This document shows, piece by piece, positions 14,484-47,369 of a stretch of 64,000 bases of DNA (the stretch's first letter is position 1; every line of letters starts with the position of its first letter). The position numbers and the translations under genes are program-made. The notes below the pieces were generated by a model. It had not been told where the DNA came from, ran no database searches, and saw only the letters and a program-made list of their open reading frames with translations. This DNA comes from Anaspis maculata (lineage: Eukaryota; Arthropoda; Insecta; Coleoptera; Scraptiidae), in contig OX421965.1 in assembly GCA_949128115.1 (NCBI GenBank), positions 59,886,012 through 59,950,011 on the forward strand. Direction: 5' to 3'.

Positions 14484-15084
14484 TTATTTTATTACGAGTG
14501 AACCGAAACTTGCTCTTTTACTCTCCAAACACTCAAGGACAGCATTCCGCGTGCATTTCTTCTTGGCCGCATCGAAAGCATATCCTCTCGGACATGCCAC
14601 CGGCAACGGTTTTGCATGCTTCTTTGAACAAACGTAAAACTTCTCGCAGTTGTTTGGGTTGACGAAACTGCCGCGGCTCCTGCACAGGAAAATCTTTCCC
14701 GATTTCGTTCCGCTATTCCCGAATTTCTTTACTCTGCTGCAACCGGAACATTTGACACAGTCACATTTGGGACAGCATCTCTTGTCGACGTAAGCGGGAA
14801 CTATCTTTCGGGATTCCCTGTTGAATTTCATGTTGCGCTTCAGCAGTTTGATCATGAAGTCCTTGCCGCGATAGTTTCGTATCTTCTGCACGAATGGATG
14901 GAACATGGTTCTGACGGAATTGTCGTGGCTCGACAGCGCATTGAATTTTCCGAGCGCGACATTGGAATTTGGAAAGAAAACTTGCAATGTTAGGATTAAA
15001 AACAGCAACGCCTGCAAATATAGGAGATTTCAGGCTACAATGGGTCTGAGCGTCTTACCGTAATCCCACTTGAAATATCCACAT
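14484..15084 (-). CDS. Secreted single-CBM14 chitin-binding protein, 180 aa
   Basis: The main exon is 14484-15011. It begins after a good acceptor (TATATTTGCAG) in phase 0 with a hydrophobic stretch. The best first exon is 15070-15084, giving MWIFQALLFLILTLQVFF as the signal peptide start; its donor (GTGGGA) is weak and the implied 58-bp intron matches the others in the cluster. After a basic region, a short cysteine-rich stretch (CCPKCDCVKCSGC) precedes one C-terminal CBM14 (Peritrophin-A) domain with six cysteines and the typical aromatic pair (FYVC). CBM14 domains bind chitin outside cells (known). The position near two mucins suggests a matrix or cuticle role (inference). AATAAA overlaps the last codons and stop (14488-14493). 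Exon 1 is the uncertain part. Confidence 0.8.
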
Positions 15085-18823: not shown

Positions 18824-21800
18824 TCAAGTTCGACAGGCACATTTGTAATCTACGCTGCAAAGGCTGATACTTGGATCAAAATATGAAGTCTCAGGGCAAT
18901 AATACTTGGATTGGATGAAGGTTCCATTTCTAAGTGCTGAACACAGGTAGTAACTTTCACACGTAACATCCATCGCATTCGGAAATCTTCCTCTAGTTAA
19001 GCAAGAAAAGTCATCAACAGTTGGAGCAGTGCAAGGATCAAAAGTGGTGGTGCCCATGGTGGTCGTGATGACTGCAGAAGTTGTAGTCGGCAGACAGTAA
19101 GGGCATCTGTAGGACAAGCTACAGATTTTAGCAACTGGATCGAAAACGGAATTTTGAGGGCAGGTGTATGGAGTTTTTATGAAGGTTCCGTTGCGTAACA
19201 TGGAACATACGAAGTATTGCTTGCATGCACTATCAGCGGAATTAACAAATCTGCCTTTCGCAGTACAAATGAACTCGTCATTTCCATTGTTCACGATGCA
19301 TGATTCGGTGGTAGTTTTTGGAGTGGTTGGCGAATTTGTTGTGGACTCAGCGTCAGAAGAACCACTGGATAATGATGTTGTAGTTGTGCTTGATTCCAAA
19401 GTAGTCGACGCGGTAGACGACGGCGAAACGGTAGTTTCTGTCGTAGCTTCCGTGAAGCTTGTGGATTCGCTTGCACCTGGAGTTGACCAATCTACAAAGA
19501 TCATAATAAGTGGCCATGATGATTATACCTGACTGGTTTTATTTAACGTACCTGTAGTTGAAGATAATTCAACGGTAGATGCAGATGATTGTGAGGTCGT
19601 CTCACTTGGTGTAATAGTGTTCAAGTCAGATGTGGAAGCCTCAGTTGTCGTGCTTCTTATGATAGAGCTACCTGTAGCTTCAGAAGATTCTGTAGAAACA
19701 GAGGAGTCTGCAGTACTTGCAGACGTCGGCTCCAAAGTCGAGGCATCGGTAGCAGTCGAAGTTTCGGCCGAGGTTGAAACTGTTGAGGATTGAACATTTG
19801 TTGTAGATGCTTCTGGTGTTCCAGCCGTAGTATCTGAACTCGAGCGGTCAGTGGTTGTGGATGAATCAGCTGCTGTTGTAGACGGTGCCTGTGTTGATTC
19901 AGTTGTAAACTCTGATGTGTTGCCAGCAGAAGCCGTGGAGGATTCAGCCGGGGTTGTAGACGATACTGGTGTTTTTTCAGTTGTCGATTTCGATGTTGAA
20001 CTATTTGCATCTGTAGAAGATTCCATAGTGGTTGTGGACGGTTCCGAGGTGGTTTCAGTAGCTGTAGAGGATTCGGCGGTTGTTGAAGATGGCTCTGTAG
20101 TGAACTCGGTAGTCGGAACAGACGTCACACCGTCTATAGCTGTGGAAGATTCGACAGTTGTTGTCGCTGGTTCTGCTGTAGTTTCAGTCGTTGGCTCAAA
20201 TGACGAAAAATCGGTACTTGCAGTTGTTTTGGCAGTTGTCGTCGATGATTCTGGTGAGGTTTCGGTAGAAGATTGGATCGTTGTTGTAGTTGGTTCTGGT
20301 GTTGTTATAGTTGTCGACTCCGAAGTTGAAGTTGAGCTTTCAGTACCTGCAGTGGTTTCGGCAGATGTGGATGGTTCTGTTGAGGATTCAGTAGTCGATT
20401 GCAATGTTGAGCTTTCGGTTTCGGTAGAGGATTCGATCGTTGTTGTAGTTTGTTCTTGTGTTGTAACAGTTGTCGATTGCAGTGTTGAGCTTCCGGTTTC
20501 GGTAGAGGATTTTATCGTTGATGTGGTTGGTTCTGGTGTTGTTTCACTTGTTGACTCCGATGTTGAACTATCGGTACTTGTAGCAGCTGTTTTGGCCGTT
20601 GTCGTCGATGGTTCTGAGGAGGTTTCAGTAGTCGATTGCAATGTTGAGCTGCCAGTTTCGGTAGAGGATTCGATCGTTGTTGTAGTTGGTTCCGGTGTTG
20701 TTTCACTTGTCGACTCCGGAGTTGAACTACCCGTACTTGTAGCAGATGTTTTGGCCGTTGTCATCGATGGTTCTGGGGTTGTTTCAGTAGTCGATTGCAA
20801 AGTTGAGCTGCCGGTTTCGGTAGAGGATCCGATCGTTGTTGTAGTTGGTTCTGGTGTTGTTATAGTTGTCGACTCCGAAGTTGAACTATCGGTACTTGCA
20901 GCAGCTGTTTTGGCCGTTGTCGTCGATGGTTCTGGGGAGGTTTCAGTAGTCGATTGCAATGTTGAGCTGCCGGTTTCGGTAGATGATTCGATTGTTGTTG
21001 TAGTTGGTTCTGGTGTTGTTTCACTTGTTGACTCCGAAGTTGAACTATCGGTACTTGTAGCAGCTGTTTTGGCCGTTGTCGTCGATGGTTCTGGGGTTGT
21101 TTCAGTAGTCGATTGCAATGTTGAACTTCCGGTTTCGGTAGAAGATTCGATCGTTGTTGTAGTTGGTTCTGGTGTTGTAACAGTTGTCGATTGCAATGTT
21201 GAGCTTCCGGTTTCGGTAGAGGATTTGATCGTTGTGGTTGGTTCCGGTGTTGTTTCACTTGTCGACTCCGAAGTTGAACTATCGATACTTGTGGCAGCTG
21301 TTTTCGCCGTTGTCGTAGATGGTTCTGGGGAGGTTTCAGTAGTCGATTGCAATGTTGAGCTGCCGGTTTCGGTGGAGGATTCGATCGTTGTTGTAGTTGG
21401 TTCTGGTGTTGTTTCACTTGTTGACTCCGAAGTTGAACTATCGGTACTTGTAGCAGCTGTTTTGACCGTTGTCGTAGATGGTTCTGGGGTTGTTTCAGTA
21501 GTCGATTGCAGTGTTGAACTTCCGGTTTCGGTAGAGAATTCGATCGTTGTTGTAGTTGGTTCTGGTGTTGTTTCACTTGTCGACTCCGAAGTTGAGCTGT
21601 CAGTACCTGCAGTGGTTTCGGCAGTTGTAGATGGTCCTGTTGAGGAGTCAGTAGTCGATTGCAATGTTGAGCTTCCGGTTTCGGTAGAGGATTCGATCGT
21701 TGTTGTAGTTGGTTCCGGTGTTGTTTCACTTGTCGACTCCGGAGTTGAACTACCCGTACTTGTAGCAGATGTTTTGGCCGTTGTCGTCGATGGTTCTGGG

Positions 21801-24800
21801 GTTGTTTCAGTAGTCGATTGCAAAGTTGAGCTGCCGGTTTCGGTAGAGGATTCGATCGTTTGTGTAGTTGGTTCTGGTGTTGTAACAGTTGTCGATTGCA
21901 ATGTTGAGCTTCCGGTTGCGGTAGAGGATTTAATCGTTGTGGTTGGTTCCGGTGTTGTTTCACTTGTCGACTCCGAAGTTGAACTGTCTATACTTGTGGC
22001 AGCTGTTTTCGCCGTTGTCGTCGATGGTTCTGGGGAGGTTTCAGTAGTCGATTGCAATATTGAGCTGCCGGTTTCGGTAGATGGTTCTGGGGTTGTTTCA
22101 GTAGTCGATTGCAATGTTGAGCTGCCGGTTTCGGTGGAGGATTCGATCTTTATTGTAGTTGGTTCTGGTGTTGTTACAGTTGTCGACTTTGAAGTTGAGC
22201 TGTCAGTACCTGCAGTGGTTTCGGCAGTTGTAGATGGTCCTGTTGAGGAGTCAGTAGTCGATTGCAATGTTGAGCTTCCGGTTTTGGTAGAGGATTCGAT
22301 CGTTGTTGTAGTTGGTTCTGGTGTTGTTACAGTTGTCGACTTTGAAGTTGAGCTGTCAGTACCTGCAGTGGTTTCGGCAGTTGTAGATGGTCCTGTTGAG
22401 GAGTCAGTAGTCGATTGCAATGTTGAGCTTCCGGTTTCGGTAGAGGATTCGATCGTTGTTGTAGCTGGTTTCGATGTTGTTTCACTTGTCGACTCCGAAG
22501 TTGAACTATCGGTACTTGTAGCAGCTGTTTTGGTCGTTGTCGTCGATGGTTCTGGGGTTGTTTCAGTAGTCGATTGCAATGTTGAACTGCCGGTTTCGGT
22601 AGATGGTTCTGGGGTTGCTTCAGTAGTCGATTGCAATGTTGACCTTCCGGTTTCGGTAGAGGATTCGATCGTTGTTGTAGTTGGTTCCGGTGTTGTTTCA
22701 CTTGTCGACTCCGGAGTTGAACTACCCGTACTTGTAGCAGATGTTTTGGCCGTTGTCGTCGATGGTTCTGGGGTTGTTTCAGTAGTCGATTGCAATGTTG
22801 AACTTCCGGTTTCGGTAGAGGATTCGATCGTTGTTGTAGTTGGTTCTGGTGTTGTAACAGTTGTCGATTGCAATGTTGAGCTTCCGGTTGCGGTAGAGGA
22901 TTTGATCGTTGTGGTTGGTTCCGGTGTTGTTTCACTTGTCGACTCCGAAGTTGAACTGTCTATACTTGTGGCAGCTGTTTTCGCCGTTGTCGTCGATGGT
23001 TCTGGGGAGGTTTCAGTAGTCGATTGCAATATTGAGCTGCCGGTTTCGGTAGATGGTTCTGGGGTTGTTTCAGTAGTCGATTGCAATGTTGAGCTGCCGG
23101 TTTCGGTGGAGGATTCGATCGTTATTGTAGTTGGTTCTGGTGTTGTTACAGTTGTCGACTTTGAAGTTGAGCTGTCAGTACCTGCAGTGGTTTCGGCAGT
23201 TGTAGATGGTCCTGTTGAGGAGTCAGTAGTCGATTGCAATGTTGAGCTTCCGGTTTTGGTAGAGGATTCGATCGTTGTTGTAGTTGGTTCTGGTGTTGTT
23301 ACAGTTGTCGACTTTGAAGTTGAGCTGTCAGTACCTGCAGTGGTTTCGGCAGTTGTAGATGGTCCTGTTGAGGAGTCAGTAGTCGATTGCAATGTTGAGC
23401 TTCCGGTTTCGGTAGAGGATTCGATCGTTGTTGTAGCTGGTTTCGATGTTGTTTCACTTGTCGACTCCGAAGTTGAACTATCGGTACTTGTAGCAGCTGT
23501 TTTGGTCGTTGTCGTCGATGGTTCTGGGGTTGTTTCAGTAGTCGATTGCAATGTTGAACTGCCGGTTTCGGTAGATGGTTCTGGGGTTGCTTCAGTAGTC
23601 GATTGCAATGTTGAGCTTCCGGTTTCGGTAGAGGATTCGATCGTTGTTGTAGTTGGTTCCGGTGCTGTTTCACTTGTCGACTCCGGAGTTGAACTACCCG
23701 TACTTGTAGCAGATGTTTTGGCCGTTGTCGTCGATGGTTCTGGGGTTGTTTCAGTAGTCGATTGCAATGTTGAACTTCCGGTTTCGGTAGAGGATTCGAT
23801 CGTTGTTGTAGTTGGTTCTGGTGTTGTTTCACTTGTCGACTCCGAGGTTGAACTATCGGTACTTGTAGCAGCTGTTTTGGCTGTTGTCGTCGATGCTTCT
23901 GGGGAGGTTTCAGTAGTCGATTGCAATGTTGAGCTGCCGATTTCGGTAGAGGATTTGATCGTTGTTGTAGTTCTCGACTCCGAAGTTGAACTATCGGTAC
24001 TTGTAGCTGTTTTGGCCGTTGTCGTCGATGGTTCAGGTGAAGTTTCAGTTGTTGATTGCAACGTTGAGCTTTCGGTGACGGTAGAAGATTGTATCGTTGT
24101 TGTAGATGGTTCGAGTGTTGTTTCACTTGTCGACTCCGAAGTTGAAATATCGGTTCCTGCAGTGGTTTCGGCAGTTGTGGATGGTCCTGTTGAGGATTCA
24201 GTAGTCGATTGCAATGTTGAACTTCCGGTTTCGGTAGAGGATTTGATCGTTGTGGTTGGTTCCGGTGTTGTTTCACTTGTCGACTCCGAAGTTGAACTAT
24301 CGATACTTGTGGCAGCTGTTTTTGCCGTTGTCGTAGATGGTTCTGGGGAGGTTTCAGTAGTCGATTGCAATGTTGAGCTGCCGGTTTCGGTGGAGGATCC
24401 GATCGTTGTTGTAGTTGGTTGTGGTGTTGTTACAGTTGTCGACTTTGAAGTTGAGCTGTCAGTACTTGCAGTGCTTTCGGCAGTTGTGGATGGCCCTGTT
24501 GAGGATTCAGTAGTCGATTGCAATGTTGAGCTTCCGGTTTCGGTGGAGGATTCGATCGTTGTTGTAGTTGGTTCCGGTGTTGTTTCACTTGTCGACTCCG
24601 AAGTTGAACTATCGGTACTAGTAGCAGCTGTTTTGGCCGTTGCCGTCGATGGTTCTGACGTTGTTTCAGTAGTCGATTGCAATGTTGAGCTTTCGGTGAC
24701 GGTAGATGATTGTATGGTTGTTGTGGTTGGTTCTGGTGTTGTTTCACTTGTCGAATCCGAAGTTGAACTATCGGTACTTGTAGCTGTTATGGCCGTTGTC

Positions 24801-27085
24801 GTCGATGGTTCAGGTGAAGTTTCAGTTGTTGATTGCAATGTTGAGCTTTCGGTAACGGTAGATGATTCTATTGTCGAAGTCGACATTATTTTAGTGCTGG
24901 TATATTGAGTAGTCGTTTGGCAATTACACGAAATGTCTTCACTGCATAGATTTATGGACGAATCGAATATTGACTTTCCGGGACATCCATATTCAGTCTG
25001 AATAAACGAACCATTCCTCAGTGCTGAACACAAATAGTACCTGGTGCAGGTCAAATCATTGGGTTTTCTGTATCGTCCTTTTTTGGTGCAAGAAAAATCA
25101 GGCTCGTCCGTCCTACAGTTTGGTGTTTCTGTCGTGGTTGCAACCGAAGTTGTTGTCGTTTTGCAAGGACAGCTGTATGTGGAATCACAGTCTCGCAGTT
25201 GAGGGTTGAAGAATTCACCGACATCACATGAGTACGAAGTTTTGATGTAGGTTTCATCAGGCATTTTCGAACAAAGATAGTAATCGATGCAGAAAGGATC
25301 TGATGGGTCATCAAACCGTCCTGATTGTACGCAAGTAAATTCTATGTTATTTCCGGTGCAGTCTGGTGTGAAAGTCGTTGTCAAAGCTGTTGTAGTGGTC
25401 AGCTGACATGGGCATTCATAGTGAATGCTGCAGTCTTGAATTTTTGTGTCGAAGAATGAACCACCGTCACATGAGTATTTGGTTTGGATAAAAGTACCAT
25501 CAGGCATTTGCGAACAAAGAAAGTAGTCAATACAGAAAGGATCGTTTGGATCATCGAATCTTCCAGATGTTTTGCAATGGAAATCGTTCCCCGTGCCGAC
25601 AGTACAAGTTGAAACTGTAGTCGTTGATTGAGTTGTGGCAGACTCGCAAGGGCAGTTATAAATTGTACTACAAATGTGGATTAAGGGGTCAAAGAAGGAG
25701 CCTTGTGGACATGTGTATTCAGTTTGTATGAATGATCCGTTTCTTAGTAAAGAGCAAAGGTAATACATGGTACAGTTGACTATGTTTGGGTTTTGGAAGC
25801 GTCCCTTTTCGGTACACTTGAACTCAGTTGAGGTGGTTACCACACAAGGATCTGGTGTGGTTGGTAGTATTGTAGTCGTTTGGCAAGGACATGTGTAGTA
25901 TCTACTGCACCTTTGTTGGTCTGGATCGTAATGAGAGTTTGGAGGGCAAACGTTGATTGATTTTAGAAATGTACCATCGTCTAATAATGTACAGAGATAG
26001 TATGAGTTGCAAGACAAATCGCTTGGGTTAGCGAATCTTCCTTCTGTGGTACATTCGAAATGGGCATCACTGGAACATTGAGGAGTTGAGGTTGTAGTTT
26101 GAGTACAAGGACATTCGTAGTATTTGCTGCAACGTTGTTCTGCCGGGTCATATAGAGAATTACTTGGACAAGAGTAAGTTGTTTGGTAAAAAGTGCCATC
26201 ATCCAAAAGCGCACAAAGAATGTACGAAGAGCATGTTAAATCTGCAGGATTTTTGAACCTTCCATCTGCAGTGCAAGTGAATTGCGTGCTGTCTGTAGAA
26301 CATTCATTTGATGGGGTTGTCGTAGTAGTACAAGGACATTGATAGTACTTGCTGCATCTATCTTCGTCTGGATCATAGAGCGAGCCGATTGGACACGTGT
26401 AGTTCGTTTGATATATTCCACCATCACCCAGTACAGAGCACAAAATATACGAAGCGCAAGTTGAATCACTCGGATTTCTAAACCGCCCATCTTCACTGCA
26501 CTTGAAATAGCTTGTAGTCGTACAAGGAGATGAAGTGGTTAGTTTATTGTTGCAAGGGCACTGGTAGTACCAACTACATCTTTCAACGTTCGGATCGTAG
26601 AAAGAACCCTTCGGGCACGAATTTCTAGTCCCATGAAACGTACCGTCTTCCAATTTGGTGCACAAGAAATACTTTGTGCAACTCAAATCCTGGGGATCTC
26701 TGAATCTTCCATCACTGTCACAAGCAAATTCTTCGTCGCTTACTGTGCACTCGTCAGCAGTCTGGTACGTTGCAATGCTTCCCAGTTTATTTCTGGCGCA
26801 TTGGTAGTTGTCGTTGCATGAAGAATTGGCCGGATCGAAATTCTCTTTGTTGCACGTGTACAGGGTTGGTTCGTAGTTGCCATCCGATAGTTCTTGACAC
26901 CAAACGTACTTGTCGCAAGAATAATCCGTGTAATATGGGAATTTTTCATCGTCTCTGCATTCTAGGACGCTTTGTGCTGCCGCAAAAGGTAACACCTAAT
27001 TCAATAAAACAAAATCAAATGGGAGGTTGAACAAAAACAAAAGACTCACAAGTAAGATGCCGAGGAAAGCTAGTGCAGTGCCCAT
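18824..27085 (-). CDS. Mucin A: multi-CBM14 peritrophin-like mucin, 2,715 aa
   Basis: There are three exons: 27050-27085, 19552-26995 and 18824-19491, with GT/AG introns of 54 bp (phase 0) and 60 bp (phase 1). The two joins restore one frame. The signal peptide is MGTALAFLGILLVLPFAAAQ. Residues about 25-702 hold nine six-cysteine CBM14 domains; most are preceded by a GRF/GRY-x-(N/D/K)P motif and end in a CPC. Residues about 703-2,555 are a Ser/Thr/Pro/Glu core built from imperfect 50-53-residue units. Two more CBM14 domains close the protein. CBM14 domains bind chitin and could cross-link fibrils; the core is expected to be heavily O-glycosylated. This is the architecture of insect intestinal mucins of the peritrophic matrix (known); the tissue is inferred. 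Tracheal or cuticular mucin is the alternative. Confidence 0.9.
19552..24925 (-). repeat. Coding repeat array of mucin A, about 50-53-aa units
   Basis: Imperfect units carry recurring blocks (SSTETGSSTLQSTTE, PEPSTTTAKTAATS, SSTSESTSETTPEPTTTTI). Unit length varies between 42 and 53 residues. Higher-order structure is visible: a 972-bp block is duplicated in tandem (see the next feature). The minus-strand frame is open throughout. Confidence 0.9.
21650..23593 (-). repeat. Tandem 972-bp higher-order duplication inside mucin A
   Basis: Landmarks recur 972 bp apart: GGGGTTGCTTCAGTAGTC at 22611 and 23583, and the TTGTTACAGTTGTCGACTTT stretch at 22171 and 23143. 972 is 324 codons, so the frame is kept. 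The two copies differ by few bases, implying a recent duplication. A shorter pair 153 bp (51 codons) apart lies inside each copy (22171/22324). Confidence 0.85.
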
Positions 27086-29831: not shown

Positions 29832-30341
29832 TTACCCTGACTTCCAGCAGCTAGGTATAAGCCAACACCCTGGCTCCGGCAAGTCCTTATTGAAATAGCC
29901 AACTTTGCATTTTTTCACTTGAGGGTGCCGCTCTTTTCCACTTCCAACACATTCAATGTAATTTTTGCAATTTTTCGAGTTGGGATCTGAGATTCTAGTG
30001 ATGGAATTCGGCACGTCATTGCAGATTGCATCTATGCATGTTGAGTGAAGAGAACATCTGTTGCTCGTAGGATTGAAAAGGGCAGATTTTGGGCACGCAT
30101 AGTCGGTCATGATCAAAGTACCCAGTAGATTAACACACAAGTAATACTTTTTGCATAGTGGGTCTTGGTGGCGAAATCTGCCTACTCCTGAGCATAAATT
30201 GGTATCATCAAGCGCAGTGGAATTTAATACTAATAACACGGTGATCTGGAATAATTAAGAAAATGTTTCAGTAGGTATGGATAACTATAAATATATATTT
30301 GAATTTTGTACCCTTACCAAAAGAACTGCTTTATTCATCAT
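29832..30341 (-). CDS. Secreted two-domain CBM14 protein, 145 aa
   Basis: Exon 1 is 30318-30341 and exon 2 is 29832-30245, with a 72-bp intron (GTAAGG donor, TTATTCCAG acceptor) in phase 0 inside the signal peptide. The protein begins MMNKAVLLITVLLVLNSTAL. Two CBM14 domains follow: one at about residues 26-79 (GRFRHQDPLCKKYYLC motif) and a more diverged one at about 80-142 with a CKNYIEC core. It has no mucin region. Two chitin-binding domains and nothing else match the small peritrophins/obstructor-like proteins of insects (known families); which of these it belongs to cannot be decided here. It sits between the two mucins and is transcribed in the same direction. Confidence 0.88.
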
Positions 30342-32561: not shown

Positions 32562-35500
32562 TTAATAGTCTACGTAGTCGTTGTCGTCATCAAATGGACA
32601 CGTAACAAGACATTCGTTTCTGCATCGCCTTAATTCTCTGTCAAATAGTTTGAATAAATCACAAGTCTTTAGTTCCTTGGTTAAAACTCCGTCGACCTCC
32701 TTACACTCGTAGTATTCTTTACAATTATCGTCTACAGGGAAACGTCCGATCTCGGTGCAGTCAAAGGGATCACTCCTTGATTGGCAGGTATCCGATGGAA
32801 CGCACTTTTCAGAATTTACATCGAAAGCGAAATTCGACGGGCACTGATACTGGATAAGTTCGTATCTGTTCAGAACGGATTTCCAAGTACATTTATAGTA
32901 TCTGTTGCAATCAGTGGGATGCGCAAAAACGCCCGACTTGTTACAGGAAAGCTGAACTTCACCGGGACATTGCACTGGGTCAGTGGTACATCTTTCATTG
33001 TACGAATCGTAGTTGCTACCTTCCAGGCAAGTAATTGGCACGTCGATCAATTCATAAACTGCATTGACACACAAATGGAAAATATGGCAGTCGACTGGAT
33101 CGGGATATTTTCCTGGACCAGGACATTGAAAGCCAGGAGTTTCTGTACTCATCGAAGTCCATGAGTTCGTAGTTGAAATTGAGCTAGATTCGGTAAACTC
33201 AGTTGTTTCGCCGCTTGTTGTTGTTGTTTCGCCGGTCGTTGTTGGACCGTCGGTCACTTCAGTGGTTGTCGATTCTGACGTCGTAGTCGGCTCTGAGCTG
33301 GCTTCTTCTGTCGTTGTTGTGCCAGACGAAACTGTTGTTGTTTCGCCGGTCGTTGTTGGACCGTCGGTCACTTCAGTGGTTGTCGATTCTGACGTCGTAG
33401 TCGGCTCTGAGCTGGCTTCTTCTGTCGTTGTTGTGCCAGACGAAACTGTTGTTGTTTCGCCGGTCGTTGTTGGACCGTCGGTCACTTCAGTGGTTGTCGA
33501 TTCTGACGTCGTAGTCGGCTCTGAGCTGGCTTCTTCTGTCGTTGTTGTGCCAGACGAAACTGTTGTTGTTTCGCCGGTCGTTGTTGGACCGTCGGTCACT
33601 TCAGTGGTTGTCGATTCTGACGTCGTAGTCGGCTCTGGGCTGGCTTCTTCTGTCGTTGTTGTGCCAGACGAAACTGTTGTTGTTTCGCCGGTCGTTGTTG
33701 GACCGTCGGTCACTTCAGTGGTTGTCGATTCTGACGTCGTAGTCGGCTCTGAGCTGGCTTCTTCTGTCGTTGTTGTGCCAGACGAAACTGTTGTTGTTTT
33801 GCCGGTCGTTGTTGGACCGTCGGTCACTTCCGTGGTTGTCGATTCTGACGTCGTAGTCGGCTCTGAGCTGGCTTCTTCTGTCGTTGTTGTGCCAGACGAA
33901 ACTGTTGTTGTTTCGCCGGTCGTTGTTGGACCGTCGGTCACTTCAGTGGTTGTCGATTCTGACGTCGTAGTCGGCTCTGAGCTGGCTTCTTCTGTCGTTG
34001 TTGTGCCAGACGAAACTGTTGTTGTTTCGCCGGTCGTTGTTGGACCGTCGGTCACTTCAGTGGTTGTCGATTCTGACGTCGTAGTCGGCTCTGAGCTGGC
34101 TTCTTCTGTCGTTGTTGTGCCAGACGAAACTGTTGTTGTTTCGCCGGTCGTTGTTGGACCGTCGGTCACTTCAGTGGTTGTCGATTCTGACGTCGTAGTC
34201 GGCTCTGAGCTGGCTTCTTCTGTCGTTGTTGTGCCAGACGAAACTGTTGTTGTTTCGCCGGTCGTTGTTGGACCGTCGGTCACTTCAGTGGTTGTCGATT
34301 CTGACGTCGTAGTCGGCTCTGAGCTGGCTTCTTCTGTCGTTGTTGTGCCAGACGAAACTGTTGTTGTTTCGCCGGTCGTTGTTGGACCGTCGGTCACTTC
34401 AGTGGTTGTCGATTCTGACGTCGTAGTCGGCTCTGAGCTGGCTTCTTCTGTCGTTGTTGTGCCAGACGAAACTGTTGTTGTTTCGCCGGTCGTTGTTGGA
34501 CCGTCGGTCACTTCAGTGGTTGTCGATTCTGACGTCGTAGTCGGCTCTGAGCTGGCTTCTTCTGTCGTTGCTGTGCCAGACGAAACTGTTGTTGTTTCGC
34601 CGGTCGTTGTTGGACCGTCGGTCACTTCAGTGGTTGTCGATTCTGACGTCGTAGTCGGCTCTGGGCTGGCTTCTTCTGTCGTTGTTGTGCCAGACGAAAC
34701 TGTTGTTGTTTCGCCGGTCGTTGTTGGACCGTCGGTCACTTCAGTGGTTGTCGATTCTGACGTCGTAGTCGGCTCTGAGCTGGCTTCTTCTGTCGTTGTT
34801 GTGCCAGACGAAACTGTTGTTGTTCCGCCGGTCGTTGTTGGACCGTCGGTCACTTCAGTGGTTGTCGATTCTGACGTCGTAGTCGGCTCTGAGCTGGCTT
34901 CTTCTGTCGTTGTTGTGCCAGACGAAACTGTTGTTGTTTCGCCGGTCGTTGTTGGACCGTCGGTCACTTCAGTGGTTGTCGATTCTGACGTCGTAGTCGG
35001 CTCTGAGCTGGCTTCTTCGGTCGTTGTTGTGCCAGACGAAACTGTTGTTGTTTCGCCGGTCGTTGTTGGACCGTCGGTCACTTCAGTGGTTGTCGATTCT
35101 GACGTCGTAGTCGGCTCTGAGCTGGCTTCTTCTGTCGTTGTTGTGCCAGACGAAACTGTTGTTGTTTCGCCGGTCGTTGTTGGACCGTCGGTCACTTCAG
35201 TGGTTGTCGATTCTGACGTCGTAGTCGGCTCTGAGCTGGCTTCTTCTGTCGTTGTTGTGCCAGACGAAACTGTTGTTGTTTCGCCGGTCGTTGTTGGACC
35301 GTCGGTCACTTCAGTGGTTGTCGATTCTGACGTCGTAGTCGGCTCTGGGCTGGCTTCTTCTGTCGTTGTTGTGCCAGACGAAACTGTTGTTGTTTCGCCG
35401 GTCGTTGTTGGACCGTCGGTCACTTCAGTGGTTGTCGATTCTGACGTCGTAGTCGGCTCTGAGCTGGCTTCTTCTGTCGTTGTTGTGCCAGACGAAACTG

Positions 35501-38500
35501 TTGTTGTTTCGCCGGTCGTTGTTGGACCGTCGGTCACTTCAGTGGTTGTCGATTCTGACGTCGTAGTCGGCTCTGAACTGGCTTCTTCTGTCGTTGTTGT
35601 GCCAGACGAAACTGTTGTTGTTTCGCCGGTCGTTGTTGGACCGTCGGTCACTTCAGTGGTTGTCGATTCTGACGTCGTAGTCGGCTCTGAGCTGGCTTCT
35701 TCTGTCGTTGTTGTGCCAGACGAAACTGTTGTTGTTTCGCCGGTCGTTGTTGGACCGTCGGTCACTTCAGTGGTTGTCGATTCTGACGTCGTAGTCGGCT
35801 CTGAGCTGGTTTCTTCTGTCGTTGTTGTGCCAGACGAAACTGTTGTTGTTTCGCCGGTCGTTGTTGGACCGTCGGTCACTTCAGTGGTTGTCGATTCTGA
35901 CGTCGTAGTCGGCTCTGAGCTGGCTTCTTCTGTCGTTGTTGTGCCAGACGAAACTGTTGTTGTTTCGCCGGTCGTTGTTGGACCGTCGGTCACTTCAGTG
36001 GTTGTCGATTCTGACGTCGTAGTCGGCTCTGAGCTGGCTTCTTCTGTCGTTGTTGTGCCAGACGAAACTGTTGTTGTTTCGCCGGTCGTTGTTGGACCGT
36101 CGGTCACTTCAGTGGTTGTCGATTCTGACGTCGTAGTCGGCTCTGAGCTGGCTTCTTCTGTCGTTGTTGTGCCAGACGAAACTGTTGTTGTTTCGCCGGT
36201 CGTTGTTGGACCGTCGGTCACTTCAGTGGTTGTCGATTCTGACGTCGTAGTCGGCTCTGGGCTGGCTTCTTCTGTCGTTGTTGTGCCAGACGAAACTGTT
36301 GTTGTTTCGCCGGTCGTTGTTGGACCGTCGGTCACTTCAGTGGTTGTCGATTCTGACGTCGTAGTCGGCTCTGAACTGGCTTCTTCTGTCGTTGTTGTGC
36401 CAGACGAAACTGTTATTGTTTCGCCGGTCGTTGTTGGACCGTCGGTCACTTCAGTGGTTGTCGATTCTGACGTCGTAGTCGGCTCTGAGCTGGCTTCTTC
36501 TGTCGTTGTTGTGCCAGACGAAACTGTTGTTGTTTCGCCGGTCGTTGTTGGACCGTCGGTCACTTCAGTGGTTGTCGATTCTGACGTCGTAGTCGGCTCT
36601 GAGCTGGCTTCTTCTGTCGTTGTTGTGCCAGACGAAACTGTTGTTGTTTCGCCGGTCGTTGTTGGACCGTCGGTCACTTCAGTGGTTGTCGATTCTGACG
36701 TCGTAGTCGGCTCTGAGCTGGCTTCTTCTGTCGTTGTTGTGCCAGACGAAACTGTTGTTGTTTCGCCGGTCGTTGTTGGACCGTCGGTCACTTCAGTGGT
36801 TGTCGATTCTGACGTCGTAGTCGGCTCTGAGCTGGCTTCTTCTGTCGTTGTTGTGCCAGACGAAACTGTTGTTGTTTCGCCGGTCGTTGTTGGACCGTCG
36901 GTCACTTCAGTGGTTGTCGATTCTGACGTCGTAGTCGGCTCTGAGCTGGCTTCTTCTGTCGTTGTTGTGCCAGACGAAACTGTTGTTGTTTCGCCGGTCG
37001 TTGTTGGACCGTCGGTCACTTCAGTGGTTGTCGATTCTGACGTCGTAGTCGGCTCTGAGCTGGCTTCTTCTGTCGTTGTTGTGCCAGACGAAACTGTTGT
37101 TGTTTCGCCGGTCGTTGTTGGACCGTCGGTCACTTCAGTGGTTGTCGATTCTGACGTCGTAGTCGGCTCTGAGCTGGCTTCTTCTGTCGTTGTTGTGCCA
37201 GACGAAACTGTTGTTGTTTCGCCGGTCGTTGTTGGACCGTCGGTCACTTCAGTGGTTGTCGATTCTGACGTCGTAGTCGGCTCTGAGCTGGCTTCTTCTG
37301 TCGTTGTTGTGCCAGACGAAACTGTTGTTGTTTCGCCGGTCGTTGTTGGACCGTCGGTCACTTCAGTGGTTGTCGATTCTGACGTCGTAGTCGGCTCTGA
37401 GCTGGCTTCTTCTGTCGTTGTTGTGCCAGACGAAACTGTTGTTGTTTCGCCGGTCGTTGTTGGACCGTCGGTCACTTCAGTGGTTGTCGATTCTGACGTC
37501 GTAGTCGGCTCTGAGCTGGCTTCTTCTGTCGTTGTTGTGCCAGACGAAACTGTTGTTGTTTCGCCGGTCGTTGTTGGACCGTCGGTCACTTCAGTGGTTG
37601 TCGATTCTGACGTCGTAGTCGGCTCTGAGCTGGCTTCTTCTGTCGTTGTTGTGCCAGACGAAACTGTTGTTGTTTCGCCGGTCGTTGTTGGACCGTCGGT
37701 CACTTCAGTGGTTGTCGATTCTGACGTCGTAGTCGGCTCTGAGCTGGCTTCTTCTGTCGTTGTTGTGCCAGACGAAACTGTTGTTGTTTCGCCGGTCGTT
37801 GTTGGACCGTCGGTCACTTCAGTGGTTGTCGATTCTGACGTCGTAGTCGGCTCTGAGCTGGCTTCTTCTGTCGTTGTTGTGCCAGACGAAACTGTTGTTG
37901 TTTCGCCGGTCGTTGTTGGACCGTCGGTCACTTCAGTGGTTGTCGATTCTGACGTCGTAGTCGGCTCTGAGCTGGCTTCTTCTGTCGTTGTTGTGCCAGA
38001 CGAAACTGTTGTTGTTTCGCCGGTCGTTGTTGGACCGTCGGTCACTTCAGTGGTTGTCGATTCTGACGTCGTAGTCGGCTCTGAGCTGGCTTCTTCTGTC
38101 GTTGTTGTGCCAGACGAAACTGTTGTTGTTTCGCCGGTCGTTGTTGGACCGTCGGTCACTTCAGTGGTTGTCGATTCTGACGTCGTAGTCGGCTCTGAGC
38201 TGGCTTCTTCTGTCGTTGTTGTGCCAGACGAAACTGTTGTTGTTTCGCCGGTCGTTGTTGGACCGTCGGTCACTTCAGTGGTTGTCGATTCTGACGTCGT
38301 AGTCGGCTCTGAGCTGGCTTCTTCTGTCGTTGTTGTGCCAGACGAAACTGTTGTTGTTTCGCCGGTCGTTGTTGGACCGTCGGTCACTTCAGTGGTTGTC
38401 GATTCTGACGTCGTAGTCGGCTCTGAGCTGGCTTCTTCTGTCGTTGTTGTGCCAGACGAAACTGTTGTTGTTTCGCCGGTCGTTGTTGGACCGTCGGTCA

Positions 38501-41500
38501 CTTCAGTGGTTGTCGATTCTGACGTCGTAGTCGGCTCTGAGCTGGCTTCTTCTGTCGTTGTTGTGCCAGACGAAACTGTTGTTGTTTCGCCGGTCGTTGT
38601 TGGGACCGTCGGTCACTTCAGTGGTTGTCGATTCTGACGTCGTAGTCGGCTCTGAGCTGGCTTCTTCTGTCGTTGTTGTGCCAGACGAAACTGTTGTTGT
38701 TTCGCCGGTCGTTGTTGGACCGTCGGTCACTTCGGTGGTTGTCGATTCTGACGTCGTAGTCGGCTCTGAGCTGGCTTCTTCTGTCGTTGTTGTGCCAGAC
38801 GAAACTGTTGTTGTTTCGCCGGTCGTTGTTGGACCGTCGGTCACTTCAGTGGTTGTCGATTCTGACGTCGTAGTCGGCTCTGAGCTGGCTTCTTCTGTCG
38901 TTGTTGTGCCAGACGAAACTGTTGTTGTTTCGCCGGTCGTTGTTGGACCGTCGGTCACTTCAGTGGTTGTCGATTCTGACGTCGTAGTCGGCTCTGAGCT
39001 GGCTTCTTCTGTCGTTGTTGTGCCAGACGAAACTGTTGTTGTTTCGCCGGTCGTTGTTGGACCGTCGGTCACTTCAGTGGTTGTCGATTCTGACGTCGTA
39101 GTCGGCTCTGAGCTGGCTTCTTCTGTCGTTGTTGTGCCAGACGAAACTGTTGTTGTTTCGCCGGTCGTTGTTGGACCGTCGGTCACTTCAGTGGTTGTCG
39201 ATTCTGACGTCGTAGTCGGCTCTGAGCTGGCTTCTTCTGTCGTTGTTGTGCCAGACGAAACTGTTGTTGTTTCGCCGGTCGTTGTTGGACCGTCGGTCAC
39301 TTCAGTGGTTGTCGATTCTGACGTCGTAGTCGGCTCTGAGCTGGCTTCTTCTGTCGTTGTTGTGCCAGACGAAACTGTTGTTGTTTCGCCGGTCGTTGTT
39401 GGACCGTCGGTCACTTCAGTGGTTGTCGATTCTGACGTCGTAGTCGGCTCTGAGCTGGCTTCTTCTGTCGTTGTTGTGCCAGACGAAACTGTTGTTGTTT
39501 CGCCGGTCGTTGTTGGACCGTCGGTCACTTCAGTGGTTGTCGATTCTGACGTCGTAGTCGGCTCTGAGCTGGCTTCTTCTGTCGTTGTTGTGCCAGACGA
39601 AACTGTTGTTGTTTCGCCGGTCGTTGTTGGACCGTCGGTCACTTCAGTGGTTGTCGATTCTGACGTCGTAGTCGGCTCTGAGCTGGCTTCTTCTGTCGTT
39701 GTTGTGCCAGACGAAACTGTTGTTGTTTCGCCGGTCGTTGTTGGACCGTCGGTCACTTCAGTGGTTGTCGATTCTGACGTCGTAGTCGGCTCTGAGCTGG
39801 CTTCTTCTGTCGTTGTTGTGCCAGACGAAACTGTTGTTGTTTCGCCGGTCGTTGTTGGACCGTCGGTCACTTCAGTGGTTGTCGATTCTGACGTCGTAGT
39901 CGGCTCTGAGCTGGCTTCTTCTGTCGTTGTTGTGCCAGACGAAACTGTTGTTGTTTCGCCGGTCGTTGTTGGACCGTCGGTCACTTCAGTGGTTGTCGAT
40001 TCTGACGTCGTAGTCGGCTCTGAGCTGGCTTCTTCTGTCGTTGTTGTGCCAGACGAAACTGTTGTTGTTTCGCCGGTCGTTGTTGGACCGTCGGTCACTT
40101 CAGTGGTTGTCGATTCTGACGTCGTAGTCGGCTCTGAGCTGGCTTCTTCTGTCGTTGTTGTGCCAGACGAAACTGTTGTTGTTTCGCCGGTCGTTGTTGG
40201 ACCGTCGGTCACTTCAGTGGTTGTCGATTCTGACGTCGTAGTCGGCTCTGAGCTGGCTTCTTCTGTCGTTGTTGTGCCAGACGAAACTGTTGTTGTTTCG
40301 CCGGTCGTTGTTGGACCGTCGGTCACTTCAGTGGTTGTCGATTCTGACGTCGTAGTCGGCTCTGAGCTGGCTTCTTCTGTCGTTGTTGTGCCAGACGAAA
40401 CTGTTGTTGTTTCGCCGGTCGTTGTTGGACCGTCGGTCACTTCAGTGGTTGTCGATTCTGACGTCGTAGTCGGCTCTGAGCTGGCTTCTTCTGTCGTTGT
40501 TGTGCCAGACGAAACTGTTGTTGTTTCGCCGGTCGTTGTTGGACCGTCGGTCACTTCAGTGGTTGTCGATTCTGACGTCGTAGTCGGCTCTGAGCTGGCT
40601 TCTTCTGTCGTTGTTGTGCCAGACGAAACTGTTGTTGTTTCGCCGGTCGTTGTTGGACCGTCGGTCACTTCAGTGGTTGTCGATTCTGACGTCGTAGTCG
40701 GCTCTGAGCTGGCTTCTTCTGTCGTTGTTGTGCCAGACGAAACTGTTGTTGTTTCGCCGGTCGTTGTTGGACCGTCGGTCACTTCAGTGGTTGTCGATTC
40801 TGACGTCGTAGTCGGCTCTGAGCTGGCTTCTTCTGTCGTTGTTGTGCCAGACGAAACTGTTGTTGTTTCGCCGGTCGTTGTTGGACCGTCGGTCACTTCA
40901 GTGGTTGTCGATTCTGACGTCGTAGTCGGCTCTGAGCTGGCTTCTTCTGTCGTTGTTGTGCCAGACGAAACTGTTGTTGTTTCGCCGGTCGTTGTTGGAC
41001 CGTCGGTCACTTCAGTGGTTGTCGATTCTGACGTCGTAGTCGGCTCTGAGCTGGCTTCTTCTGTCGTTGTTGTGCCAGACGAAACTGTTGTTGTTTCGCC
41101 GGTCGTTGTTGGACCGTCGGTCACTTCAGTGGTTGTCGATTCTGACGTCGTAGTCGGCTCTGAGCTGGCTTCTTCTGTCGTTGTTGTGCCAGACGAAACT
41201 GTTGTTGTTTCGCCGGTCGTTGTTGGACCGTCGGTCACTTCAGTGGTTGTCGATTCTGACGTCGTAGTCGGCTCTGAGCTGGCTTCTTCTGTCGTTGTTG
41301 TGCCAGACGAAACTGTTGTTGTTTCGCCGGTCGTTGTTGGACCGTCGGTCACTTCAGTGGTTGTCGATTCTGACGTCGTAGTCGGCTCTGAGCTGGCTTC
41401 TTCTGTCGTTGTTGTGCCAGACGAAACTGTTGTTGTTTCGCCGGTCGTTGTTGGACCGTCGGTCACTTCAGTGGTTGTCGATTCTGACGTCGTAGTCGGC

Positions 41501-44500
41501 TCTGAGCTGGCTTCTTCTGTCGTTGTTGTGCCAGACGAAACTGTTGTTGTTTCGCCGGTCGTTGTTGGACCGTCGGTCACTTCAGTGGTTGTCGATTCTG
41601 ACGTCGTAGTCGGCTCTGAGCTGGCTTCTTCTGTCGTTGTTGTGCCAGACGAAACTGTTGTTGTTTCGCCGGTCGTTGTTGGACCGTCGGTCACTTCAGT
41701 GGTTGTCGATTCTGACGTCGTAGTCGGCTCTGAGCTGGCTTCTTCTGTCGTTGTTGTGCCAGACGAAACTGTTGTTGTTTCGCCGGTCGTTGTTGGACCG
41801 TCGGTCACTTCAGTGGTTGTCGATTCTGACGTCGTAGTCGGCTCTGAGCTGGCTTCTTCTGTCGTTGTTGTGCCAGACGAAACTGTTGTTGTTTCGCCGG
41901 TCGTTGTTGGACCGTCGGTCACTTCAGTGGTTGTCGATTCTGACGTCGTAGTCGGCTCTGAGCTGGCTTCTTCTGTCGTTGTTGTGCCAGACGAAACTGT
42001 TGTTGTTTCGCCGGTCGTTGTTGGACCGTCGGTCACTTCAGTGGTTGTCGATTCTGACGTCGTAGTCGGCTCTGAGCTGGCTTCTTCTGTCGTTGTTGTG
42101 CCAGACGAAACTGTTGTTGTTTCGCCGGTCGTTGTTGGACCGTCGGTCACTTCAGTGGTTGTCGATTCTGACGTCGTAGTCGGCTCTGAGCTGGCTTCTT
42201 CTGTCGTTGTTGTGCCAGACGAAACTGTTGTTGTTTCGCCGGTCGTTGTTGGACCGTCGGTCACTTCAGTGGTTGTCGATTCTGACGTCGTAGTCGGCTC
42301 TGAGCTGGCTTCTTCTGTCGTTGTTGTGCCAGACGAAACTGTTGTTGTTTCGCCGGTCGTTGTTGGACCGTCGGTCACTTCAGTGGTTGTCGATTCTGAC
42401 GTCGTAGTCGGCTCTGAGCTGGCTTCTTCTGTCGTTGTTGTGCCAGACGAAACTGTTGTTGTTTCGCCGGTCGTTGTTGGACCGTCGGTCACTTCAGTGG
42501 TTGTCGATTCTGACGTCGTAGTCGGCTCTGAGCTGGCTTCTTCTGTCGTTGTTGTGCCAGACGAAACTGTTGTTGTTTCGCCGGTCGTTGTTGGACCGTC
42601 GGTCACTTCAGTGGTTGTCGATTCTGACGTCGTAGTCGGCTCTGAGCTGGCTTCTTCTGTCGTTGTTGTGCCAGACGAAACTGTTGTTGTTTCGCCGGTC
42701 GTTGTTGGACCGTCGGTCACTTCAGTGGTTGTCGATTCTGACGTCGTAGTCGGCTCTGAGCTGGCTTCTTCTGTCGTTGTTGTGCCAGACGAAACTGTTG
42801 TTGTTTCGCCGGTCGTTGTTGGACCGTCGGTCACTTCAGTGGTTGTCGATTCTGACGTCGTAGTCGGCTCTGAGCTGGCTTCTTCTGTCGTTGTTGTGCC
42901 AGACGAAACTGTTGTTGTTTCGCCGGTCGTTGTTGGACCGTCGGTCACTTCAGTGGTTGTCGATTCTGACGTCGTAGTCGGCTCTGAGCTGGCTTCTTCT
43001 GTCGTTGTTGTGCCAGACGAAACTGTTGTTGTTTCGCCGGTCGTTGTTGGACCGTCGGTCACTTCAGTGGTTGTCGATTCTGACGTCGTAGTCGGCTCTG
43101 AGCTGGCTTCTTCTGTCGTTGTTGTGCCAGACGAAACTGTTGTTGTTTCGCCGGTCGTTGTTGGACCGTCGGTCACTTCAGTGGTTGTCGATTCTGACGT
43201 CGTAGTCGGCTCTGAGCTGGCTTCTTCTGTCGTTGTTGTGCCAGACGAAACTGTTGTTGTTTCGCCGGTCGTTGTTGGACCGTCGGTCACTTCAGTGGTT
43301 GTCGATTCTGACGTCGTAGTCGGCTCTGAGCTGGCTTCTTCTGTCGTTGTTGTGCCAGACGAAACTGTTGTTGTTTCGCCGGTCGTTGTTGGACCGTCGG
43401 TCACTTCAGTGGTTGTCGATTCTGACGTCGTAGTCGGCTCTGAGCTGGCTTCTTCTGTCGTTGTTGTGCCAGACGAAACTGTTGTTGTTTCGCCGGTCGT
43501 TGTTGGACCGTCGGTCACTTCAGTGGTTGTCGATTCTGACGTCGTAGTCGGCTCTGAGCTGGCTTCTTCTGTCGTTGTTGTGCCAGACGAAACTGTTGTT
43601 GTTTCGCCGGTCGTTGTTGGACCGTCGGTCACTTCAGTGGTTGTCGATTCTGACGTCGTAGTCGGCTCTGAGCTGGCTTCTTCTGTCGTTGTTGTGCCAG
43701 ACGAAACTGTTGTTGTTTCGCCGGTCGTTGTTGGACCGTCGGTCACTTCAGTGGTTGTCGATTCTGACGTCGTAGTCGGCTCTGAGCTGGCTTCTTCTGT
43801 CGTTGTTGTGCCAGACGAAACTGTTGTTGTTTCGCCGGTCGTTGTTGGACCGTCGGTCACTTCAGTGGTTGTCGATTCTGACGTCGTAGTCGGCTCTGAG
43901 CTGGCTTCTTCTGTCGTTGTTGTGCCAGACGAAACTGTTGTTGTTTCGCCGGTCGTTGTTGGACCGTCGGTCACTTCAGTGGTTGTCGATTCTGACGTCG
44001 TAGTCGGCTCTGAGCTGGCTTCTTCTGTCGTTGTTGTGCCAGACGAAACTGTTGTTGTTTCGCCGGTCGTTGTTGGACCGTCGGTCACTTCAGTGGTTGT
44101 CGATTCTGACGTCGTAGTCGGCTCTGAGCTGGCTTCTTCTGTCGTTGTTGTGCCAGACGAAACTGTTGTTGTTTCGCCGGTCGTTGTTGGACCGTCGGTC
44201 ACTTCAGTGGTTGTCGATTCTGACGTCGTAGTCGGCTCTGAGCTGGCTTCTTCTGTCGTTGTTGTGCCAGACGAAACTGTTGTTGTTTCGCCGGTCGTTG
44301 TTGGACCGTCGGTCACTTCAGTGGTTGTCGATTCTGACGTCGTAGTCGGCTCTGAGCTGGCTTCTTCTGTCGTTGTTGTGCCAGACGAAACTGTTGTTGT
44401 TTCGCCGGTCGTTGTTGGACCGTCGGTCACTTCAGTGGTTGTCGATTCTGACGTCGTAGTCGGCTCTGAGCTGGCTTCTTCTGTCGTTGTTGTGCCAGAC

Positions 44501-47369
44501 GAAACTGTTGTTGTTTCGCCGGTCGTTGTTGGACCGTCGGTCACTTCAGTGGTTGTCGATTCTGACGTCGTAGTCGGCTCTGAGCTGGCTTCTTCTGTCG
44601 TTGTTGTGCCAGACGAAACTGTTGTTGTTCGCCGGTCGTTGTTGGACCGTCGGTCACTTCAGTGGTTGTCGATTCTGACGTCGTAGTCGGCTCTGAGCTG
44701 GCTTCTTCTGTCGTTGTTGTGCCAGACGAAACTGTTGTTGTTTCGCCGGTCGTTGTTGGACCGTCGGTCACTTCAGTGGTTGTCGATTCTGACGTCGTAG
44801 TCGGCTCTGAGCTGGCTTCTTCTGTCGTTGTTGTGCCAGACGAAACTGTTGTTGTTTCGCCGGTCGTTGTTGGACCGTCGGTCACTTCAGTGGTTGTCGA
44901 TTCTGACGTCGTAGTCGGCTCTGAGCTGGCTTCTTCTGTCGTTGTTGTGCCAGACGAAACTGTTGTTGTTTCGCCGGTCGTTGTTGGACCGTCGGTCACT
45001 TCAGTGGTTGTCGATTCTGACGTCGTAGTCGGCTCTGAGCTGGCTTCTTCTGTCGTTGTTGTGCCAGACGAAACTGTTGTTGTTTCGCCGGTCGTTGTTG
45101 GACCGTCGGTCACTTCAGTGGTTGTCGATTCTGACGTCGTAGTCGGCTCTGAGCTGGCTTCTTCTGTCGTTGTTGTGCCAGACGAAACTGTTGTTGTTTC
45201 GCCGGTCGTTGTTGGACCGTCGGTCACTTCAGTGGTTGTCGATTCTGACGTCGTAGTCGGCTCTGAGCTGGCTTCTTCTGTCGTTGTTGTGCCAGACGAA
45301 ACTGTTGTTGTTTCGCCGGTCGTTGTTGGACCGTCGGTCACTTCAGTGGTTGTCGATTCTGACGTCGTAGTCGGCTCTGAGCTGGCTTCTTCTGTCGTTG
45401 TTGTGCCAGACGAAACTGTTGTTGTTTCGCCGGTCGTTGTTGGACCGTCGGTCACTTCAGTGGTTGTCGATTCTGACGTCGTAGTCGGCTCTGAGCTGGC
45501 TTCTTCTGTCGTTGTTGTGCCAGACGAAACTGTTGTTGTTTCGCCGGTCGTTGTTGGACCGTCGGTCACTTCAGTGGTTGTCGATTCTGACGTCGTAGTC
45601 GGCTCTGAGCTGGCTTCTTCTGTCGTTGTTGTGCCAGACGAAACTGTTGTTGTTTCGCCGGTCGTTGTTGGACCGTCGGTCACTTCAGTGGTTGTCGATT
45701 CTGACGTCGTAGTCGGCTCTGAGCTGGCTTCTTCTGTCGTTGTTGTGCCAGACGAAACTGTTGTTGTTTCGCCGGTCGTTGTTGACCGTCGGTCACTTCA
45801 GTGGTTGTCGATTCTGACGTCGTAGTCGGCTCTGAGCTGGCTTCTTCTGTCGTTGTTGTGCCAGACGAAACTGTTGTTGTTTCGCCGGTCGTTGTTGGAC
45901 CGTCGGTCACTTCAGTGGTTGTCGATTCTGACGTCGTAGTCGGCTCTGAGCTGGCTTCTTCTGTCGTTGTTGTGCCAGACGAAACTGTTGTTGTTTCGCC
46001 GGTCGTTGTTGGACCGTCGGTCACTTCAGTGGTTGTCGATTCTGACGTCGTAGTCGGCTCTGAGCTGGCTTCTTCTGTCGTTGTTGTGCCAGACGAAACT
46101 GTTGTTGTTTCGCCGGTCGTTGTTGGACCGTCGGTCACTTCAGTGGTTGTCGATTCTGACGTCGTAGTCGGCTCTGAGCTGGCTTCTTCTGTCGTTGTTG
46201 TGCCAGACGAAACTGTTGTTGTTTCGCCGGTCGTTGTTGGACCGTCGGTCACTTCAGTGGTTGTCGATTCTGACGTCGTAGTCGGCTCTGAGCTGGCTTC
46301 TTCTGTCGTTGTTGTGCCAGACGAAACTGTTGTTGTTTCGCCGGTCGTTGTTGGACCGTCGGTCACTTCAGTGGTTGTCGATTCTGACGTCGTAGTCGGC
46401 TCTGAGCTGGCTTCTTCTGTCGTTGTTGTGCCAGACGAAACTGTTGTTGTTTCGCCGGTCGTTGTTGGACCGTCGGTCACTTCAGTGGTTGTCGATTCTG
46501 ACGTCGTAGTCGGCTCTGAGCTGGCTTCTTCTGTCGTTGTTGTGCCAGACGAAACTGTTGTTGTTTCGCCGGTCGTTGTTGGACCGTCGGTCACTTCAGT
46601 GGTTGTCGATTCTGACGTCGTAGTCGGCTCTGAGCTGGCTTCTTCTGTCGTTGTTGTGCCAGACGAAACTGTTGTTGTTTCGCCGGTCGTTGTTGGACCG
46701 TCGGTCACTTCAGTGGTTGTCGATTCTGACGTCGTAGTCGGCTCTGAGCTGGCTTCTTCTGTCGTTGTTGTGCCAGACGAAACTGTTGTTGTTTCGCCGG
46801 TCGTTGTTGGACCGTCGGTCACTTCAGTGGTTGTCGATTCTGACGTCGTAGTCGGCTCTGAGCTGGCTTCTTCTGTCGTTGTTGTGCCAGACGAAACTGT
46901 TGTTGTTTCGCCGGTCGTTGTTGGACCGTCGGTCACTTCAGTGGTTGTCGATTCTGACGTCGTGGTCGGCTCTGAGCTGGCTTCTTCTGTCGTTGTTGTG
47001 CCAGACGAAACTGTTGTTGTTTTGCCGGCGTTATCAGTCGTAGATGTCGGAGTTGGGGTAGTGGTTACCATAGAACTGGCAGTTTCTGTCGTTGTGTAAA
47101 CCCATGGTTCATCGCATTCCAAATCTGAATTGTCATTGCAAACCAATCCAGGCGGACACTGTTGTGGTTGCCCAATCACCCATGTTGCGTTTCCAACTTC
47201 TACGCATTGGTAGAAGTGAGTTTCATCATAACAGACGAAACCTTTATTATGGCAATCTATTATTTCAATTGCTATCACTTGGTATACCTGCGAAACAATA
47301 ATGTTCATTTTCAGTGGTATACTTTTGCTTTCAAATGAACACAATTAAATTGATGATGATAGTTCTCAT
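32562..47369 (-). CDS. Mucin B: giant repeat mucin with CBM14 domains, about 4,917 aa
   Basis: The main exon is 32562-47287 after the acceptor TTTCGCAG. The best first exon is 47343-47369 (MRTIIINLI, phase 0, 55-bp intron, weak GTGTTC donor); an unspliced start at 47308 (MNIIVSQ) is the alternative. Residues about 21-67 form a six-cysteine module (spacing C6C8C15C5C7C). A short linker, 120 tandem 38-residue units (about 128-4,687) and three CBM14 domains (about 4,729-4,910) follow, ending in an acidic tail. Each unit has 17 Thr, 6 Ser, 7 acidic residues and no Lys, Arg, Cys or aromatic. Three 1-bp changes break the frame at 38602-38604, 44628-44629 and 45784; correcting them gives 4,909 codons exactly, so they look like assembly errors, though a pseudogene is not excluded. 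Expected role: heavily O-glycosylated, chitin-anchored gel-forming mucin. Confidence 0.85.
38602..38604 (-). other. Frame-breaking insertion, GG to GGG
   Basis: All other units read GTTGGACC here; this one reads GTTGGGACC. It splits the mucin B frame near its last third. Confidence 0.9.
44628..44629 (-). other. Frame-breaking deletion, TTT to TT
   Basis: All other units read GTTTCGCC or a substituted variant of the same length; this one reads GTTCGCC, shifting the mucin B frame by -1. Confidence 0.9.
45784..45784 (-). other. Frame-breaking deletion, GG to G
   Basis: This unit reads GTTGACC where all others have GTTGGACC, shifting the mucin B frame by -1. Confidence 0.9.

Follow-up and report, generated by a model that had tools for sequence, protein, structure and literature searches.

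A near-perfect array of 121 38-residue units in a probable chitin-binding mucin gene of the beetle Anaspis maculata

The window, the whole stretch of 64,000 nucleotides of contig OX421965.1 of the beetle Anaspis maculata that was analysed, contains a predicted gene of two exons, the second of which encloses a long 114-bp tandem array together with the domains on either side of it (Table 1). The encoded N-terminus, MRTIIINLIVYQVIAIEI, is hydrophobic and spans the predicted intron, and a signal peptide is plausible here. It is followed by a six-cysteine domain that has no match in Pfam at E<=10, by the array itself, and by a C-terminal part carrying three CBM_14 domains. An insect peritrophin-A mucin is expected to contain at least one CBM_14 domain and Ser/Thr/Pro-rich repeats over at least one third of the protein, the latter cut-off following PMC2515642; in this gene three stretches match CBM_14, and the array accounts for 93.5% of 4,917 residues when the indels described below are allowed for. 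The initial annotation, which had read the gene as a mucin, is supported by the composition of the repeat unit (60% Ser and Thr), by the three CBM_14 domains, and by the resemblance of both ends to a single protein of the ladybird Coccinella. Among solved structures there was one match at E<=0.1, the chitinase 6g9c (E=2.6e-4); the fold of CBM_14 is known, while the 38-residue repeat is presumably disordered. Rfam, at gathering scores, and ARAGORN returned no RNA genes.

Table 1. Positions of the gene, its repeat array and indels, and the neighbouring CBM_14 reading frames within the window
Feature	Position	Strand	Basis
Exon 1 (predicted), MRTIIINLI, start of possible signal peptide	47343..47369 (27 bp)	(-)	read directly; joins exon 2 in phase
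GT-AG intron (predicted), 55 bp, GTGTTC...TTTCGCAG	47288..47342	(-)	sequence
Exon 2 (predicted), containing the entire array with the domains on either side; three indels interrupt the assembled frame	32562..47287	(-)	sequence
Possible signal peptide end and six-cysteine N-terminal domain, Cys spacing 6, 8, 15, 5, 7	47075..47287	(-)	match to the Coccinella protein P0002
Probable decayed unit at the 5' edge, 15-bp loss	47012..47125	(-)	57/114 identities at a 15-bp offset; weak
114-bp array, 121 complete units, VSSGTTTTEEASSEPTTTSESTTTEVTDGPTTTGETTT	33219..47011	(-)	unit-by-unit cutting and Tandem Repeats Finder
One gained base, unit 48, GG run	38604	(+)	sequence
One lost base, unit 101, TTT run	44630	(+)	sequence
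One lost base, unit 111, GG run	45785	(+)	sequence
C-terminal part, three CBM_14 (peritrophin-A) domains, ends ...DYVDY stop	32562..33218	(-)	Pfam PF01607, E=3.6e-17, three stretches
CBM_14 reading frame	29832-30254	(-)	CBM_14 scan
Neighbouring reading frame, 2,490 codons, several CBM_14 then Thr/Ser repeat centre	19523-26995	(-)	CBM_14 scan of 24900-26995
CBM_14 reading frame	18824-19504	(-)	CBM_14 scan
CBM_14 reading frame	14484-15017	(-)	CBM_14 scan

CBM_14 matches were obtained in five of the ten stretches scanned, the C-terminal part of this gene included, and the reading frames concerned lie on one strand as a cluster of peritrophin-type genes. The largest neighbour resembles the gene in combining CBM_14 domains with a Thr/Ser repeat centre, whereas its CBM_14 domains stand on the N-terminal side and its repeats, units of about 159 bp with 79% matches along 20258-22081, are more diverged than the 114-bp array; the frame at 18824-19504 could represent one of its later exons. 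A shared origin of the two repeats was rejected: in a blastn search that recovered its positive control, the 114-bp unit had no match within 20258-24908 at E<=10. Elsewhere in the window, Tandem Repeats Finder located a 259-bp tandem repeat at 10191-11631 (5.5 copies, 78% matches).

For the array, Tandem Repeats Finder reported a period of 114 bp over 33219-47032 on the minus strand, with 121.2 copies, 99% matches and 0% indels, and chance is excluded as its source. Complete units number 121, of which 104 are identical in DNA, with 14 distinct DNA units in all. The encoded 38-residue peptide, VSSGTTTTEEASSEPTTTSESTTTEVTDGPTTTGETTT, holds 17 Thr, 6 Ser, 6 Glu and 2 Pro, so that proline is low, and it recurs unchanged in 109 of the 118 units that measure exactly 114 bp, where seven distinct peptides are found; over the whole array this amounts to about 2,057 Thr and 726 Ser. 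The 38-residue unit had been recognised correctly in the initial annotation, while its count of exactly 120 falls one short: the unit starts from 33219 to 46898 define 120 intervals, the commonest 14-mers of the unit each occur 121 times, and it was evidently the intervals that had been counted. The same slip appears in the flanks, which had been given as 127 and 230 residues (357 in total), compared with 319 residues outside 121 units, an excess of exactly one unit. Among the matches listed from the open-access literature on insect and ladybird mucins and their repeats, the array is not described.

The plus strand of the array carries open frames as well, at 33130-38637 (1,835 codons) and 38531-44686 (2,051 codons), with Val-rich translations. 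An antisense gene was considered and rejected, these frames following simply from reading a stop-free unit in reverse. The neighbouring mucin gene is likewise open on its opposite strand, at 19794-24908 (+).

The three one-base changes that had been reported inside the array were recovered and are one gain and two losses; the total of 4,917 residues was likewise recovered once the net loss of one base is allowed for (4,918 codons including the stop). The further statements that the repeat is uninterrupted and that no unit has another length hold for the repeat and for the interior of the array with indels allowed for; in the sequence as assembled, units 48, 101 and 111 measure 115, 113 and 113 bp, and a literal translation ends after 544 residues. 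If these frameshifts were real, the allele would make only the 544-residue product that the literal translation gives, and everything beyond it would be a decaying pseudogene. We consider this highly unlikely, as the three CBM_14 domains downstream are open and conserved, the indels are located in short runs of equal bases, and none of the substitutions in the array creates a stop, though 12 possible single changes per unit would do so. Since the indels fall in such runs, the downstream domains are intact and the substitutions are free of stops, errors in the assembly consensus are the most likely source of all three, even if runs of two to three bases are much shorter than the homopolymers in which such errors usually arise. 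Broken reading frames of MUC1 in assemblies have been attributed to sequencing errors in homopolymers (PMC13345508, a preprint). With three frameshifts as assembled, the present gene illustrates how loci of this kind can break gene models.

A related question is whether the length of the array is itself a product of assembly, a real array of another length having been collapsed or expanded in its interior and polished to a consensus. Two features of the sequence point in this direction, namely a run of 71 consecutive units without any substitution and the three frame-breaking indels. In the opposite direction, an array of 13.8 kb is within the span of ordinary long reads, and the variants seen in units 4-29 and 49 lie deep inside the array, a pattern unlike a simple tiling of consensus units between two edges. 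A precedent for such an assembly product exists in GRCh38, which reportedly carries a wrongly short MUC6 array (PMC6269512). An array length made by assembly is rather unlikely in our judgement; the unit count and the 71-unit clean stretch could nonetheless be partly assembly-made.

The uniformity of the array had been ascribed either to strong constraint on the unit or to very recent expansion, and the substitutions help to separate the two. From the unit consensus there are 15 substitutions (11 different changes), six synonymous and nine non-synonymous; the expected synonymous fraction is 0.29-0.31, and the binomial P of 0.39-0.42 places the observation near the neutral expectation. The mean pairwise difference between 114-bp units is 0.0022 per site, and units 50-120 form the 71 consecutive units that lack substitutions, a run with a probability of 6e-5 under random placement of the 14 variant units, by a test chosen post hoc. 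The change S13P recurs in units 4, 13, 19 and 27, and one silent change is common to units 21 and 28; such recurrence of the same variants in separate units is what the spread of variants by copying would produce.

Strong purifying selection on the 38-residue peptide, fixing both the length and the sequence of the unit, would account for the identical peptide in 109 of 118 units. It would sit poorly with the nine of 15 substitutions that alter a residue, a proportion close to that expected without selection, and with synonymous sites that are almost as uniform as the others, and it appears very improbable. Strong constraint is accordingly not borne out by this small sample, with which weak constraint on the unit is compatible. 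Very recent expansion, or homogenisation, is supported by the 104 of 121 units that are identical in DNA, synonymous sites included, and by a Coccinella protein that has no 38-residue repeat. Because the substitutions are near neutral and 71 units are free of them, homogenisation or recent expansion is favoured over constraint as the explanation of the regularity.

The edges of the array give weak signs of decayed units. At the 5' edge, the 57 identities in 114 positions at a 15-bp shift are the best among 114 offsets, in a stretch that includes about 21 bp still following the array, and the local score was reached by six of 300 codon shuffles. At the 3' edge, the in-register comparison gives 47 of 114, third among 114 offsets, and 28 of 59, which ranks first; local alignment gave no signal at this edge, its score being reached by 167 of 300 shuffles. 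Edges and interior together fit growth and homogenisation driven by recombination, with the ends less homogenised. In about half of human mucins, edge motifs are reported to be more degenerate (PMC13345508, a preprint).

Further evidence on the origin of the array comes from LOC123321144 of Coccinella septempunctata (P0002), an uncharacterized protein of 344 residues known as a computed prediction, which matches both ends of the gene. The six-cysteine domain is 64% identical over 66 residues to positions 21-86 of this protein, and the C-terminal part reaches 54% identity over 56% of the query in BLASTP and 48% in a MAFFT alignment. Both proteins therefore share the six-cysteine N-terminal domain and three C-terminal CBM_14 domains, similar at both termini and in the same order, and LOC123321144 is the best candidate orthologue. 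The presence of both ends in one protein lends independent support to the gene model across the array. The two differ in what lies between: in Coccinella a linker of 69 residues that includes 36 Ser or Thr, and in Anaspis about 4,600 array residues. No 38-residue repeat is present in the Coccinella protein, and its linker shows no likeness to the unit beyond that of its own shuffles, 108 of 500 of which reach its score. Descent of the unit from a linker of this type is not supported by this shuffle comparison, and a linker no closer to the unit than its shuffles is a further point against strong purifying selection on the peptide. The comparison suggests that the array is lineage-specific; the predicted Coccinella protein could have skipped an array present in its genome.

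The first protein search, with the C-terminal part and about three units as query, scored 7,985 candidates and returned three matches. Besides the Coccinella protein, these were a 194-residue metagenome protein (P0001), encoded on a 21,707-bp contig and showing 65% identity with the C-terminal domains across 57% of the query, and a weak match in the springtail Orchesella dallaii, which covered 20% of the query at E=2.7e-4 and was set aside. All protein searches admitted only proteins of 0.55-1.75 times the length of the query, long relatives being barred from the first search, and the candidates scored in this search and in that with the array were those sharing most words with the query. A second protein search returned the query itself as the sole match among 1,326 candidates, and when the array itself served as query, none of the 7,945 candidates scored reached E<=1e-5. 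From the 65% identity of the metagenome protein, DNA of a related animal appears to be present in a public metagenome; when this protein was used as query against viral contigs, three stretches fitted a pattern, with no confirmed relative among them.

Chitin binding by the CBM_14 domains is predicted from their family. Several CBM_14 domains with a Thr-rich mucin centre make up the layout of peritrophic-matrix mucins, and by analogy the peritrophic matrix of the gut is the most likely site of the protein. The CBM_14 proteins of ladybirds are also discussed as peritrophic in PMC11871716. Both points weigh against placing the same protein outside the gut, as a mucin of the cuticle, tracheae, eggshell or a secretory gland, which we hold to be the less likely location by some distance; in its favour, the symbiotic organ of a stinkbug is reported to express a mucin that has one chitin-binding domain (PMC9095716), and some salivary-gland mucins of Drosophila are described as bearing such domains (PMC2515642). 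In the peritrophic matrix, the folded ends would anchor the protein to chitin or to neighbouring molecules, and the centre, which from its composition may be O-glycosylated, would serve as a long, hydrated and protease-resistant spacer or filler.

Taken together, the locus probably holds a gene for a secreted chitin-binding mucin, with a hydrophobic N-terminus, a six-cysteine domain, a Thr/Ser centre of about 121 units of 38 residues and three CBM_14 domains, whose array has grown recently and been homogenised by recombination. The array would have grown in place of a short Ser/Thr linker through unequal crossing over or a related form of recombination among DNA repeats, and the same recombination would have made the interior homogeneous, leaving decayed units at the edges. 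The unit length of 114 bp would have been kept by the copying of whole units and by the need to hold the reading frame, and not by tight selection on the 38-residue peptide. More tentatively, and with somewhat more doubt than belief, we propose that since the split from Coccinella a Ser/Thr linker of about 70 residues gave way to, or expanded into, some 4,600 residues of near-perfect repeat, for the most part recently enough to leave 71 consecutive units free of substitutions. If a giant domain did arise in one lineage in this way, the length of the locus would be expected to be hypervariable between individuals, and the two beetles would form a pair, with and without the array, for testing the role of a mucin spacer in the chitin matrix.

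Mucin repeat arrays are already known in mammals and flies, and the view that the length and regularity of this array are exceptional does not survive comparison with MUC4, MUC12, MUC2, Muc68E and Muc14A. Alleles of the MUC4 VNTR exon are reported to reach 27,843 bp and MUC12 to reach 23,080 residues (PMC13345508, a preprint); MUC2 is described with 98 units of 23 residues, 32 of them unique, and exon 31 of MUC6 with 24 units in 12,294 bp (PMC6269512). These four human mucins resemble the present gene in having Thr/Ser-rich tandem units in one large exon, and differ in that no chitin-binding domains are named in these accounts; the units of MUC2 are also more varied, set against seven distinct peptides in 118 units here. 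Among insects, Muc14A of Drosophila is said to approach human MUC16 in length (PMC2515642). Muc68E, also of Drosophila, shares the layout and the mode of evolution: it is secreted, bears three chitin-binding domains and has a homogeneous array at its centre, for which PMC4938639 reports 5 to >82 blocks of 16-48 residues, homogenised through expansion, contraction and gene conversion. The unit of Muc68E is a different one, and its copies number 5 to >82 compared with 121 here. The motif P[ED][ED][ST][ST][ST] given for Muc68E in the same paper is absent from the Anaspis unit in a regular-expression search, and the cysteine pattern CX2GX9CX5CX9CX5WX6CX6C has no match in the 218-residue C-terminal part; with both absent, membership in the Muc68E family proper was ruled out. 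What sets the present gene apart is a near-perfect array of 121 units between two conserved domains, beside an apparent orthologue practically without an array, which offers a clean case for dating the birth and growth of an array and for learning if the length of the spacer in a chitin-binding mucin affects phenotype at all. Compared with these systems, the gene is a large and very uniform mucin of a familiar repeat kind and not a new kind of gene.
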